From: Sulfurihydrogenibium azorense Az-Fu1
GTDB lineage: Bacteria; Aquificota; Aquificia; Aquificales; Hydrogenothermaceae
DNA length: 64,000 nt
Direction: 5' to 3'
Assembly (NCBI RefSeq): GCF_000021545.1
Contig: NC_012438.1
Coordinates: 1,548,003 to 1,612,002, forward strand
Shown here: one piece after another, positions 3,485 through 64,000 of the stretch
How the letters are laid out: each line of letters opens with the position of its first letter
Position numbering within the stretch: position 1 is the stretch's first letter
Position numbers and translations under genes: made by a program
Notes under the pieces: generated by a model
What the model was told of the DNA's origin: nothing
The model's database searches: none
What the model saw: only the letters and a program-made list of their open reading frames with translations

Positions 3485-3588
3485 AAACAAGCAGCTGTTG
3501 ACTATATAGCAGGAATGACAGATAGGTATGCAATAAAGACTTATGAAAAAATATTTATACCGCGAGGTTGGAATGTGGTTTGAGAGAG
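3485..3588 (+). repeat. Direct repeat copy 2: displaced dGTPase 3' end
   Basis: Second copy of the dGTPase tail. The dGTPase reading frame stays open through it to a TGA stop at 3580-3582, ending IPRGWNVV. The downstream glycosyltransferase start at 3573 overlaps this stop, the same compact arrangement seen elsewhere in this genome. This suggests copy 2 is the original 3' end and copy 1 arrived with the inserted segment. Confidence 0.85.
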
Positions 3589-32051: not shown

Positions 32052-32759
32052 GTTTTTCTCCCGACTATGAGGGAATTGAAACACCTTTTCCGATGATGTT
32101 TGAATGAGTGTACCAGTGTGTTTTTCTCCCGACTATGAGGGAATTGAAACCTCTTCTTTGGACTAAAACTTTACCAACCATGTTGCGTTTTTCTCCCGAC
32201 TATGAGGGAATTGAAACTCAACTTGTACTAAACCTGGTGATACATAGACCACCAGGTTTTTCTCCCGACTATGAGGGAATTGAAACTATAGACTCTCGTA
32301 AAAATTGAATATTTTCATTTCAGTTTTTCTCCCGACTATGAGGGAATTGAAACATAGCTTTGCAAGCATTTTGTCATGATTTGCTTGAATGTTTTTCTCC
32401 CGACTATGAGGGAATTGAAACTAACATGATTGAAGCTATAGTTGATGTTGATGTTGGTTTTTCTCCCGACTATGAGGGAATTGAAACTACTCTTCAAAGT
32501 TTTATGAAAGCATGACTATACTTGGTTTTTCTCCCGACTATGAGGGAATTGAAACTCTCGAAACTCGAGATAAAACTTATCACTACCGCCCGTTTTTCTC
32601 CCGACTATGAGGGAATTGAAACCTAATTGGATATACACATTATCTCTTTCAGTGAATATCGTTTTTCTCCCGACTATGAGGGAATTGAAACTTAATTAAC
32701 TGAAAGTATACATCATCTTTTTCCTTGAGTTTTTCTCCCGACTATGAGGGAATTGAAAC
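32052..32759 (+). CRISPR. CRISPR array, 11 repeats and 10 spacers
   Basis: Eleven identical 31-bp repeats begin GTTTTTCTCCCGACT and end GGAATTGAAAC. Repeat starts: 32052, 32120, 32187, 32256, 32323, 32391, 32457, 32525, 32592, 32661, 32729. Spacers are 35 to 38 bp and all differ. The internal CTCCC...GGGA gives a short stem, and the ATTGAAAC 3' end is typical of type I and III systems whose 8-nt handle begins there. The AT-rich leader and promoter lie upstream, so the spacer at 32083 is expected to be the newest. No cas gene is in the window, so cas proteins must act in trans. No degenerate last repeat is seen. Confidence 0.98.
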
Positions 32760-32864
32760 TATAAAATCATGCCGACTTTTACATAAGCTAATTTTGTCAA
32801 GTCTTTAGCCTGTCTATGAAGAGTTTAGAGATGTTGGTTTAAGCTATAATTGATTTATCGTTGT

Positions 32865-57690: not shown

Positions 57691-58671
57691 TTACTCTGTT
57701 GTTGATTTAGATGGTGCAAGCTCTAAACCCATATCTGCCAACGCATCTTTTATCTCTTTTAAAGATTTTCTTCCAATACTTTTAGCTTCTTTTAAATCAT
57801 CTTCCGATAGTTTTACTAAATCTCCAATTGTGTTTATTCCTAGTTTTCTTAATGTGTTTATAGCTCTTGAAGATATTTCAAGCTCATCAATTGCTAAGGA
57901 CAACTTGTCTTCTTCTATTTTTAACTCTTCTGTTTTTGGTGCAACAGTTTTCTTAATAACCTGTGCCTTCCTTACTGTAGGCTTTTGAAGGAGTGTAAAG
58001 TGTTCTATTAGTATGTTTGCAGACTTTTCGAGAGCTTCATCTGGAGTAATAGTTCCATCTGTTTCAATCTCAAGTATAAGCCTGTCATAATCTGTTTTAT
58101 CTCCAACTCTAACAGGTTCTACAAAGAAAGTACATCTTTTTATTGGAGAAAAAGACGTGTCTATTAATATCCAACCAATCTCATTTATATCTTCTAATTC
58201 CTCTACTGTTTTATACCCTCTTCCTCTTTCTATTCTAAATTCCATTTGAAGTTTTACATTTTCAGAAAGAGTACATATGTACTCATCAGGATTTACAATC
58301 TCTATTCCTGGTGGAGCTTTAATGTCTTTTGCAAAAACTTTACCAGGGCCTTCAACTTCTAATATAGCAAAATCTCTTTCTATATTTTCATCTATCTTTA
58401 ACCTAATTTGTTTTAAATTTAAGATAATTTCACTTACATCTTCTATTACACCTTTTACTGTTGTAAACTCGTGAGGCACTCCTACTATTTTAACAGCTGT
58501 AATAGCACCACTTGGTAACGATGAAAGTAAAACTCTTCTCAAAGCATTACCAAGTGTTATACCATACCCTCTCTCTAAAGGCTCTACGTATAACTTACCA
58601 AAATTTTCTGTTTTTGTTGACTCATCCCAATATATTTTTGAAGGCATTACAAAATCTAACAAAGATGGCAT
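57691..58671 (-). CDS. rpoA: RNA polymerase alpha subunit
   Basis: A 326-residue alpha subunit. N-terminal assembly domain: YVEPLERGYGITLGNALRRV; C-terminal helix-hairpin-helix domain near residues 255-320: ISSRAINTLRKLGINTIGDL, EAKSIGRKSLKEIKDAL. I chose ATG 58671 because AAGGAG lies 8 bp before it; GTG 58680 overlaps that site. The 99-bp gap from rpsD is filled by a structured RNA element (58683-58779), so translation of rpoA may be controlled by it. Confidence 0.98.
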   Translation of the reverse strand: MPSLLDFVMPSKIYWDESTKTENFGKLYVEPLERGYGITLGNALRRVLLSSLPSGAITAVKIVGVPHEFTTVKGVIEDVSEIILNLKQIRLKIDENIERDFAILEVEGPGKVFAKDIKAPPGIEIVNPDEYICTLSENVKLQMEFRIERGRGYKTVEELEDINEIGWILIDTSFSPIKRCTFFVEPVRVGDKTDYDRLILEIETDGTITPDEALEKSANILIEHFTLLQKPTVRKAQVIKKTVAPKTEELKIEEDKLSLAIDELEISSRAINTLRKLGINTIGDLVKLSEDDLKEAKSIGRKSLKEIKDALADMGLELAPSKSTTE

Positions 58672-58682
58672 CTTTACCACTC

Positions 58683-58779
58683 CTTACCGGATTTTTTCCG
58701 GTACCGGGGTATTTATTACCGCCTTTAAATAAAAGTGCTCCTTGCCCCGGCAGGCGGTTTTGGAGCACTTGAGGTTTTA
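58683..58779 (-). ncRNA. Structured RNA element A in the rpoA leader
   Basis: On the minus strand, three helices cross in the order 3-2-1-3'-2'-1'. They are GGAGCACTT/AAGTGCTCC (58762-58770 with 58733-58741), GGCGG/CCGCC (58753-58757 with 58719-58723) and CCCCGG/CCGGGG (58745-58750 with 58704-58709). A hairpin TACCGGA/TCCGGTA (58685-58703) then sits directly before the rpoA AGGAG site. The same order occurs at 60216-60283 and 62461-62529 with different but complementary bases in helices 1 and 3. It starts right after the rpsD stop, and no tnpB remnant is attached here. The strand is inferred from the operon direction. Confidence 0.7.
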
Positions 58780-59394
58780 TTACATAGAGTAGAACTCAAT
58801 TATATACTGAACATTTACAGGGATTTCTAACTCTATCTCTTCTGGGATTTCGACAACCTTTCCTCTCATATTTTCTTTGTCTAATTCGAGCCACTTTGGT
58901 ATAGATCTTGGATCTCTATTTTCTAAATTTTCTTTGAAAATAGCCAACTTTTTACTTTTTTCTCTAACTTCTATAATATCACCTGCATCTACCCTGTATG
59001 ATGGTATATCAACTTTTTTACCGTTTACTGTAAAATGGCCATGTTTTACAAGCTGCCTTGCCTGCTGTCTTGTTTTTGCAAAACCTAATCTGTATACCAC
59101 ATTATCTAATCTTCTTTCTAGTAACTGTAGTAAAACTACACCTGTGTTACCTGCTTTTTTAGATGCTTCTTCGAAGTATCTTCTGAATTGACTCTCTCTT
59201 AAACCGCCATATAAGAACTTTAACTTTTGTTTTTCTTGTAATCTAACTCCATAATCGGATAGTTTTTTTCTACCTTGAGTTCTTCCGTGTTGTCCCGGTG
59301 GAAAATTTCTCTTTTGAAAAGACTCTAAATCACCACCTATAAATACGCCTAATCTCCTACTTACTTTTGTTAAAGGTCCTATATATCTACCCAT
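58780..59394 (-). CDS. rpsD: Ribosomal protein S4
   Basis: A 204-residue protein: MGRYIGPLTKVSRRLG, FPPGQHG, the S4 domain RLDNVVYRLGFAKTRQQARQ and VNGKKVDIPSYRVDAGD. In E. coli S4 is the translational repressor of the alpha operon through an mRNA pseudoknot, which makes the RNA elements in this operon notable. Confidence 0.98.
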   Translation of the reverse strand: MGRYIGPLTKVSRRLGVFIGGDLESFQKRNFPPGQHGRTQGRKKLSDYGVRLQEKQKLKFLYGGLRESQFRRYFEEASKKAGNTGVVLLQLLERRLDNVVYRLGFAKTRQQARQLVKHGHFTVNGKKVDIPSYRVDAGDIIEVREKSKKLAIFKENLENRDPRSIPKWLELDKENMRGKVVEIPEEIELEIPVNVQYIIEFYSM

Positions 59395-59815: not shown

Positions 59816-60166
59816 TTACTTTTTTCTTTTTCCTCTTCTCGTTTTTGCATTTGTTTTTGTTCTTTGACCTCTCACTGGAAGACCAAGTCTATGTCTTACA
59901 CCTCTGTAACAACCCATATCAACCAATCTTTTGATAGCAACAGCAACTTCTCTTCTGAGGTCACCTTCCACTTTATAATTTTGCTCAATAAACTTTCTTA
60001 TTGTATTAAGCTCTTCTGGAGTTAACTCTCCAACTCTCTTCATTCCGTCTATTCCTGTTTTTTCCAATATCTCTTTTGCTCTAGTCTTACCTATACCATA
60101 GATGTAGGTAAGAGCTATCTCCAATCTTTTTCTATCGGGTAAGTCTACACCTGCAATACGTGCCAT
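59816..60166 (-). CDS. rpsM: Ribosomal protein S13
   Basis: A 116-residue protein: [34 protein letters not shown] and [18 protein letters not shown]. The usual upstream neighbour rpmJ is separated from it by about 470 bp holding a decayed transposon end. No strong ribosome-binding site precedes the ATG (only AGG within CCAGGCTG), and the transposon hairpin ends about 20 bp upstream. Confidence 0.98.
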
Positions 60167-60175
60167 ATTTTACAG

Positions 60176-60540
60176 CCTGGTTAACCAAAGTGTATAAAGT
60201 TAGCTACACTCTGGACTGGGGTATTTCTATTCCGCCTTTTTCAGATGCAAGCAATCCCCAGCAGGCGGTATTTTGCTTGCATCATAGTCCCTGTCCCAAG
60301 AAACAGGAACTAACCCTACTGCTACCCTATCCCAATCCCTATCTACCAGTATTGGCTTCAAGGGTGATAAGTCCCTGCTAATAGACTTATCCAGAATAGG
60401 TATAGCAAGGGCTACCTTTACAATTTGCCATAGTTTCTAGCTTGCATAACGCAAGCCCTTCACCTGTGCCTTCCATCGGTTGACAGGCTCTTGGGTCTAT
60501 GGCTCACTGTAAAGGCTTTGTATTATCCTTATTCACTTAC
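60176..60540 (-). pseudogene. Element B: decayed 3' end of the TnpB-related element, with RNA core
   Basis: About 365 bp closely similar to the 3' end of the TnpB-related gene at 62427-62840, but with in-frame stops and no rest of the gene. The RNA pairings persist: CTGGGG/CCCCAG (60216-60221, 60256-60261), CCGCC/GGCGG (60232-60236, 60264-60268), GATGCAAGC/GCTTGCATC (60244-60252, 60275-60283), CCTGT/ACAGG (60290-60294, 60303-60307) and GCTTGC/GCAAGC (60440-60445, 60451-60456). The last two differ in sequence from the intact copy but still pair. A terminal hairpin AGTGTA/TACACT lies next to rpsM. The 56-bp hairpin insert of the intact copy is absent here. Confidence 0.85.
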
Positions 60541-60639
60541 ATTTACCAAGTTAAAGTTTTTATTATTTAATAACTTTTGTTCCGTAAAATATTCTTATAA
60601 AGTTTTTAATAGTTTTTGCTAACCGTTTTATACCTCTTT

Positions 60640-61782: not shown

Positions 61783-62760
<978 letters not shown>

Positions 62761-64000
62761 CTGTTCCTTCCTTAGGTTGACAGTATCTTGGGTCTGTGGC
62801 TCACTGTAAAGGCTTTGGATTATCCTTATCTGTTTACTTAAATCGTTTATATTTTTTATTATTGGTTTTCTTTTATACTGATTGTTTTCTGTTTTTAACT
62901 TCTCTTGTGTTTTTTGTTTTTCTTCTTGTAGTCTATCTTGTGCAAAGTTTAAATACTCTCTGTCTGTTATTAGTTTTTCGTAATTCTTAGGTAGTTTTTC
63001 TTTAAATCCTAATGCTTTTCTTCCTATTACAAATGCTCCTGCTATATCTTTGTCTAAACTATACTGTGGTGCATACTTTAATGACCCTACAATAGATGTG
63101 TATGCTGGATTTACTTGTATTACTTGTATTCTCTTTCTTTTGGCAAGTATTTTTATCTTGTCTAACAAGCCTTTGTATATCCATTGTTGTTTTATTTTTC
63201 TCAGTTTCTTACTCCCATCTCCTTTACTACCTTTTGGTATGTCTTTTAAGTTTTCTATTGCTATTGCCTTATTCTTTTCTTTAGCAATGTCTGTTATTTG
63301 GTGTGCTATTTGCCAAGATATGTATTCTCTTTGGTTTTTTGTCTTGTTTAAAAGATTGTGTAAATATAATTTCTCTATATTTTCTAAATTGCCATCTTTC
63401 TTTACAAAAGCCATTGCTATGTGAAATGGATTTGCGTTTATGTCTATCCCTATTACTCCGTTGTCTTTTGTTATTATTGGTTCTTCTGTCTTTATTTCTT
63501 CGTAGTTTATAAATGCGTAGAAATCGTTGTTTATCTTTCTTATCTCTACTGAGTATGGGAAATACTGGTTTGTTTGGTTTGCTTGTATTAGGTCTGCTAT
63601 GAAGTTAGTCCATTTATCGTTTTGTCTGTTTACTGCTCTTTTTATGTTTGCTTTTATCCAGTTTCTTTCTCCTGTGTTTATTCTTAATATTATTTTATCT
63701 TTCTCAAATTCTATTCTTGTATTTAGGTTTCCTTTTTTAGATTTATCTCCTCTTGAGTATAGGCAGTGTTTTCTTCTATCTTGCCATTTTTGTTTTAGTT
63801 TTTCTCTATCTTTTCCGTTTATGTGTTTGTTTTTAAGGAGTTGAAATAGTCTTTTACCTCCAAATATAACTTTTTTAGGATTTTGTTCTCTTTCTATACA
63901 GCTGTTTATTAGCCACTTTGCTTTGAATATTGCATCGTCTACGTATCTTGAGTTTATGTTAAACATTTTTTGTAAATCTTTTTTAAGGTCTTTTCTTGAG

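Follow-up and report, generated by a model that had tools for sequence, protein, structure and literature searches.

What is the structured element that occupies the gap between rpsD and rpoA in the thermophilic bacterium Sulfurihydrogenibium azorense Az-Fu1: a regulatory leader, a domesticated transposon end or a solo omega-RNA acting as a guide? These three possibilities were raised in a preliminary description of the locus, and we addressed them by analysis of the 64,000-nucleotide stretch that contains it (the window), which is part of a complete 1,640,877-bp genome (G000), and of related genomes.

A double pseudoknot between rpsD and rpoA

Both genes are encoded on the minus strand, with the stop codon of rpsD (58780–59394) ending at position 58780 and rpoA (57691–58671) lying downstream. 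The 97-base gap between them is filled by element A (58685–58770, minus strand), the hairpin of which directly abuts the Shine-Dalgarno (SD) sequence AGGAG of rpoA (58680–58684, minus strand). The sequence bears out this arrangement as well as the composition described earlier, a pseudoknot core and a hairpin without a tnpB remnant, at unchanged coordinates. The ORF caller places the start of rpoA at a GTG at 58680, inside the SD; the ATG at 58669–58671 is the likelier start codon.

In the transcript sense, the gap reads AAGTGCTCC AAA ACCGCC TG CCGGGG CAA GGAGCACTT ... GGCGGT AATAAATA CCCCGG TACCGG-AAAAAAT-CCGGTA AGGAGT...ATG. The helix strands follow one another in the order 5'-S1, a, b, S1, a, b-3' (1-2-3-1-2-3), which corresponds to two interlocked H-type pseudoknots, and the double pseudoknot is followed by the hairpin. 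All parts are on the minus strand: helix S1 pairs AAGTGCTCC (58762–58770) with GGAGCACTT (58733–58741) and differs in sequence among species, with compensation; helix a pairs ACCGCC (58753–58758) with GGCGGT (58718–58723), its CCGCC/GGCGG segment being nearly invariant in all copies of the RNA; and helix b pairs CCGGGG (58745–58750) with CCCCGG (58704–58709). The A-rich loop 3 (AATAAATA, 58710–58717) crosses helix a, and the terminal hairpin (TACCGG-AAAAAAT-CCGGTA, 58685–58703) retains an ACCGG/CCGGT stem in all nine orthologues. When element A is folded alone by RNAfold, with the pseudoknots left out, z = −2.7. A blastn search with a 141-bp element A query recovered no second match in the same genome besides the query itself.

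Element A is present in the rpsD-rpoA gap of all seven genomes of genus g1 and both genomes of the sister genus g6. It is missing from this gap in G104 and every other relative examined, where only a short SD-bearing spacer is found, and is absent in most Hydrogenothermaceae and Aquificaceae. The carriers form one clade in a concatenated-protein tree (support 0.90), so that a single gain suffices. Within this clade, S1 ranges from 9–10 bp down to 4–6 bp and is wholly changed in sequence, helix b occurs as TGCCGGG/CCCGGTA, TGCCGGG/CCCGGCA, TACTGGG/CCCAGTA and TGCTGGG/CCCAGCA, and the fold is retained with compensatory changes in all nine orthologues. Conservation in species without tnpB copies, which had been proposed earlier as a way to recognize a regulatory leader, was examined and favors a leader: three carriers (G098, G078 and G079) have no detectable TnpB. 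Element A is inherited vertically and appears to be kept by selection on its fold.

An IS607-family element at Shine-Dalgarno sites

The core of element A is also the right end of every intact copy examined of one TnpB family (560 aa; TIGR01765/TIGR01766), in which it overlaps the 3' end of tnpB. This TnpB family is common to many genomes of the order, with five copies in G000, and TnpB-linked right ends are found in Aquificota, thermophilic Bacillota and one genome of the Nitrospirota set. Directly upstream of tnpB, an IS607 TnpA (NF033518) is encoded in Bacillota relatives and in G083, a genome from the family to which the window belongs (the matches in G083 and G764 have E values of 1e-66 and 1e-70). 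An IS200/IS605 element of the Y1 type was rejected as the parent: no Y1 transposase is present in G000, and IS607 TnpA adjoins the relatives. A PDB sequence search with TnpB found nothing.

Two further copies in the window, B and C, share the core of element A but differ from it in the sequences of S1 and b. Copy B (60176–60632, minus strand) is a decayed IS607-type element located between the SD and the start codon of rpsM; tnpB has been lost, and what is left is the left end and an reRNA of about 330 nt. Its left flank is AAAAAGAGG, with the original rpsM SD (AGAGG, 60633–60637, minus strand) as the target left of the left end, and its pseudoknot core and right end (60176–60283, minus strand) terminate in AACCAGG. 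In copy C, which is located upstream of adk, the core and right end (62421–62529, minus strand) coincide with the 3' end of a tnpB-like gene; the copy ends with TTTACCAGG, followed by TAGGA and the TTG start of adk. The window covers the C-terminal 508 of the 560 aa of its TnpB (62440–63966, minus strand; TIGR01765, TIGR01766), the rest lying beyond the window edge, and the 3' end of tnpB extends into the reRNA. Upstream of the core, B and C have in common a scaffold of about 230 nt that is lacking in A. Both copies are found only in G000, and its nearest relative, G102, has precise empty sites, AAAAAGGAGG^CTGTAAAATATGG for B and TTTTTAAGGAGG^TAGTATTGAAAAC for C; B and C are recent insertions confined to one genome.

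Several additional observations concern the window and its surroundings. The ~330-nt reRNA is complete in copy B, where it shows compensatory changes against that of C (for example, GCCATAG/CTATGGC versus GCCACAG/CTGTGGC), although tnpB is gone, and it could serve as a trans guide for the TnpB of other copies, aimed at the empty rpsM site. A third decayed right-end (RE) copy lies a short way beyond the window, before rpsN (S14) of the same ribosomal cluster (L112, G000:C1:1616347-1616417, minus strand), which brings three RE-type copies and one solo copy within about 10 kb. Elsewhere in the window, there is a CRISPR-like array (32052–32787) of 11 repeats GTTTTTCTCCCGACTATGAGGGAATTGAAAC with 66–69 nt spacing, and a direct repeat of 103 nt (2435–2537 and 3485–3587; 91% identical, 1,050 bp apart).

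In all resolved cases, namely nine intact copies and copy B, and two more besides, the left flank of the element is a host SD. The junctions include AAGGAGG|TTTTAAAC, CAGGAGG|TTAAAAAC, TAGGAGG|TTAAAAAC, AAGAGG|CTAAAAAC, AAAGGTGG|ATAAAAAC, GAGGAGG|TAAAAAAC, AAGGAGG|TTAAAAAC, AAAGGAGG|TAAACA and GAGGAGG|TAAGCA, among others. At the opposite side, the element ends in ...TTNACCAGG or GGTTGACCAGG, and in nearly all RE-type copies a start codon follows 4–11 nt on, so that the terminal CCAGG would restore an SD for the downstream gene. GG termini, a GG target without duplication and an AGGAG-like TAM in the left flank are found in B, C and other copies; the left end of A is gone. The TAM in these genomes thus appears to be the ribosome binding site itself, which is replaced by the element end. 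Our literature search found no paper linking IS607 or TnpB insertion to the SD sequence.

A structured RNA family in front of core genes

A pattern search recovered the core in 65 of the 112 genomes of the order, and the reversed pattern, used as a control, had no matches in any genome listed. A covariance model built from 88 aligned copies (cut-off E ≤ 1e-4) yields about 311 copies in 81 of the 112 genomes, with 35 in G051, 20 in G101 and 18 in G018. Beyond the order, the model has matches in the Nitrospirota group (4 of 296 genomes) and in one Bacillota group (21 of 398 genomes, of which the best four were examined and are TnpB right ends), which rules out a family restricted to Aquificota. 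In viral contigs, a loose pattern gave apparent chance matches only and a stricter one none, and no TnpB relatives were found.

The proposed pairing is supported by covariation across the 88 aligned copies. The score of the named structure is 0.295, compared to 0.138 for shuffled alignments (0 of 500 reach the observed value) and no more than 0.158 with slid partners; 88.4% of the cells are paired (78.1% in shuffles), and 217 are changed on both sides (83 in shuffles). Column pair 27-72 is CG in 45 copies and UA in 43, with zero exceptions, and 99.2% of the helix b cells are paired. In a set of 119 copies, the central Y-R pair of helix b, for which the search pattern permitted all four combinations, covaries perfectly (67 T-A, 52 C-G, 0 mismatches). 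S1 reaches at least 7 bp in 96% of copies, as opposed to 7% when the flanks are shuffled and 24% when they are exchanged among copies. The spacer from GGCGG to CCC measures 11 nt in 114 of the 119 copies (consensus GATAYAAATAS), and the conservation of loop 3 and of the AAAA/AAATA linker goes far beyond what base-pairing requires. The covariation and the reversed-pattern controls rule out a chance or low-complexity repeat. These RNAs match no Rfam family, and the RAGATH-18 covariance model has no match at the gathering score or at E values of up to 1-5. We found no prior description of this RNA in the main text, as available to us, of the Aquificales ncRNA survey (Lechner 2014, PMC4227106). 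The RNA family and the mode of exaptation are novel, built of known parts (IS607, TnpB reRNA and 5'-UTR leaders).

Nearly every copy examined is followed by a same-strand start codon 30–50 nt past the core, and an ORF of at least 100 aa starts within 68 nt of 82% of copies versus 22% of random positions. According to NCBIfam and Pfam, the downstream genes include those for ribosomal proteins (S18, S20, S21, L9, L17, L21, L25, L32), translation and RNA factors (EF-G, IF-2, IF-3, HPF, Era, Rho, Hfq), protease and stress proteins (FtsH, Lon, HtpX, Hsp20, GrpE), and FtsZ, MreB, AcpP, GlyA, IlvC, MetE, MetF, Ndk, NapA, FolE, TrxB and aconitase. In G051, 5 of the 17 solo copies are followed by a ribosomal protein gene (P about 2e-4 with 54 of 1,600 genes taken as the background), an enrichment that may simply mirror strong SDs as the insertion target. 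Within a clade, solo leaders are found repeatedly in front of one gene (htpX, acpP, hsp20, napA, rpoA), and the same gene types are hit in different species (rho in G050, G051 and G058; metE in G000, G031 and G051; hfq in G051, G063 and G064). A −10-like (TATAAT-like) box is located 3–10 nt upstream of S1, most commonly at 6–8 nt, in 41% of solo copies (11% in the control) and in 3% of RE-type copies; where it is present in solo copies, S1 would be the 5' end of the mRNA. A T5 run precedes the start codon in only 2 of 86 solo leaders, which argues against an intrinsic terminator or attenuator.

Some copies stand out by their context. Four genomes of the Nitrospirota group carry orthologous solo leaders (L392-L395) before an uncharacterized protein of ~71 aa with conserved Cys residues (MH..K.SVDM..L.AYLPEIV.C.H.PS...C..C.FK.EC), for which the one sequence tested had no Pfam match. 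RE-type insertions before aconitase-family genes in two families of the order (L373 in G000 and L407 in G106) are a case of recurrent targeting of one gene's SD. In genus g18, G051 has 35 leader copies, and the pattern finds zero in G052-G057, which carry other TnpBs.

Taken together, the copies make up a graded series, from intact elements through the 330-nt reRNA of copy B and solo cores ending in (T)AACCAGG to solo cores with only the hairpin and SD, such as A. TnpB (TIGR01766) was not detected in six genomes that nevertheless contain copies: G018 (18), G079 (5), G058 (3), G078 (2), G098 (1) and G080 (1). TnpB-linked copies occur in three phyla, and the solo copies recovered are confined to Aquificota and a few Nitrospirota, with Bacillota covered only unsystematically in this respect, so that a transposon origin is the simpler direction; the same distribution disfavors the reverse, capture of a host leader by the transposon. 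We infer descent from transposon end to leader. The earlier suggestion of a domesticated transposon end is strongly supported by the identity of the core with the right end of the IS607-type TnpB element and by the vertical retention of A, with compensatory changes, in a single clade, and element A is best regarded as an exapted transposon end.

Probable function of the leader and relation to known systems

At the level of sequence comparison, the family, fold, position, origin and vertical retention of element A are established. With a probability that we put at about 0.55, A is a cis-acting leader of rpoA that derives from the IS607 right end, that is, the 3' domain of the TnpB guide RNA, and acts as a constitutive structural leader. 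Its likeliest role, at roughly even odds, would be constitutive support of translation initiation or of mRNA stability. According to the scenario that we favor, the transposon would exchange at the GG within an AGGAGG of the host that precedes a start codon, the terminal ...ACCAGG of the element would become the new SD of the downstream gene, and loss of tnpB would leave a solo leader composed of two interlocked H-type pseudoknots, the hairpin, the SD and the start codon. Such a leader would have been fixed before rpoA in the ancestor of g1 and g6, and selection on the fold would have maintained it since. Situated just upstream of the 30S footprint, the compact, heat-stable pseudoknot and hairpin may hold the stretch from the SD to the AUG single-stranded and, where the RNA is the 5' end of the mRNA, may shield the transcript from 5'-end decay; between rpsD and rpoA, the leader would give rpoA its own initiation site within the operon. 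Operon copies, A included, are not at the transcript 5' end, and 5'-end protection would therefore need internal processing.

That helix a, loop 3 and the linker are so strongly conserved could point to a bound ligand or protein instead of a passive structure, and the extreme conservation of loop 3 and the linker makes a common trans-acting factor the main rival. All copies would then bind one factor, be it a small molecule, a ribosomal or RNA-binding protein or a global regulator, and the transposon would have seeded a set of co-regulated genes. We entertain this possibility tentatively. Besides the conservation beyond pairing need, it would account for the many translation, RNA and stress genes among the targets and for the recurrence of rho, metE and hfq across species; however, any argument from the gene set is confounded by the preference of the transposon for SDs, since SD-targeted insertion could itself produce a broad gene list, and the pseudoknot itself also needs conserved loops. 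Furthermore, no alternative fold or SD sequestration is evident, the SD follows the hairpin, and intrinsic terminators are few. Neither a second structure nor a terminator was seen, and a riboswitch, like a shared ligand or binding protein, is the less probable but still possible reading. In the broadest version, possible but rather speculative, an SD-targeting transposon would have seeded a phylum-wide regulon, with the guide-RNA end as the common sensor or binding site and the genes, rpoA among them, responding together to one signal; if true, this would be a bacterial counterpart of the eukaryotic networks wired by transposable elements.

It is improbable that A survives as a neutral remnant of an old insertion. 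The transposon origin, and the fact that many other genes do without such a leader, would be compatible with a relic, but the fold is kept by compensation in nine species in which the sequence of S1 has wholly changed, and solo leaders are kept at the same gene across the species of a clade.

Quite improbable, too, is an autoregulatory site for S4, the rpsD product, equivalent to the alpha-operon pseudoknot of E. coli. The pseudoknot does adjoin rpsD, and Rfam Alpha_RBS (RF00140) has a sub-threshold match at the junction of copy B and rpsM (60134–60217, minus strand; 25 bits against a threshold of 38, E = 0.0099), but this match rests largely on the rpsM coding start, and B and C are recent insertions of a single genome. 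Dozens of genes that have nothing to do with S4 are preceded by this RNA as well, and the gap lacks A in most Hydrogenothermaceae and Aquificaceae, which makes S4-specific autoregulation unlikely. The regulatory leader of the preliminary description is hence supported in the general sense, but not in its S4-specific form.

That A serves in trans as a solo guide RNA (omega/reRNA) for a TnpB encoded elsewhere is very improbable: although the right-end core is shared, five TnpB copies of the family are present in G000 and copy B retains its whole reRNA, compensatory changes included, with tnpB gone, A lacks the upstream scaffold of about 230 nt found in B and C and survives in TnpB-less genomes (G018 even has its 18 copies without TnpB), its 'guide' position is its own ribosome binding site and start codon, and the orthologues conserve the fold and the SD, with nothing to suggest selection on a foreign guide.

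The reading of A as a leader derived from a transposon end links three things that were not previously connected in the papers we found: an SD-targeting IS607 TnpB, a guide-RNA domain as a leader and a new RNA family. First, the AGGAG target motif of IS607 TnpB would be the SD, with the element landing between the SD and the start codon and its own end restoring the SD. Second, the 3' domain of the TnpB guide RNA appears to live on as an mRNA leader where TnpB has been lost. Third, there is a structured RNA family that Rfam lacks; it numbers about 311 copies in a single order and stands before core genes. If the leaders act, they would be a natural portable 5' UTR module for high temperature, and gene regulation seeded by a transposon would have a bacterial example.

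The accessible part of PMC11061315 describes the RAGATH-18-derived reRNA of IS607 TnpB as a pseudoknotted RNA at and beyond the tnpB 3' end, next to the right end, with 64% of RAGATH-18 RNAs adjoining TnpB and AGGAG as the TAM in 18 of 22 strains tested; mRNA leaders are not discussed for these RNAs in that part. The RNA described here resembles that reRNA in the pseudoknots at the right end, the SD-like AGGAG left of the element and the adjacent IS607 TnpA in relatives, but differs from RAGATH-18 in having no Rfam match and in that its right-end domain also occurs alone as an mRNA leader in TnpB-less genomes. IS607 transposons have GG termini and insert at a GG target without target duplication, and the tested IS607 prefers (G)GG with no further sequence relationship among its targets (PMC6188088). 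The configuration AGG|...CCAGG| with precise empty sites agrees with this mode of insertion, whereas the location at SD sequences and the orientation of the right end, which faces the start codon, set the present elements apart from the one tested. With the S4 pseudoknot of the alpha operon (RF00140), element A has in common that it is a pseudoknot leader in the rpsM-rpsK-rpsD-rpoA operon; it differs in fold, sequence and position, has no RF00140 match in the Rfam search, and belongs to an RNA common to many S4-unrelated genes. ERIC, Correia and BOX are transposon-derived bacterial mRNA elements, short structures carried in mRNAs. Unlike them, the RNA studied here has an IS607 guide-RNA domain as its parent, the SD as its insertion point and an element end that supplies the new SD. 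Finally, TldR is, according to the accessible part of PMC13418256, a domesticated TnpB in which both the protein and the guide RNA are kept and act in trans; parts of a TnpB system are likewise exapted for host gene control here, but, as far as that part of the source allows the comparison, it is only the RNA end that is kept, in cis and without the protein.
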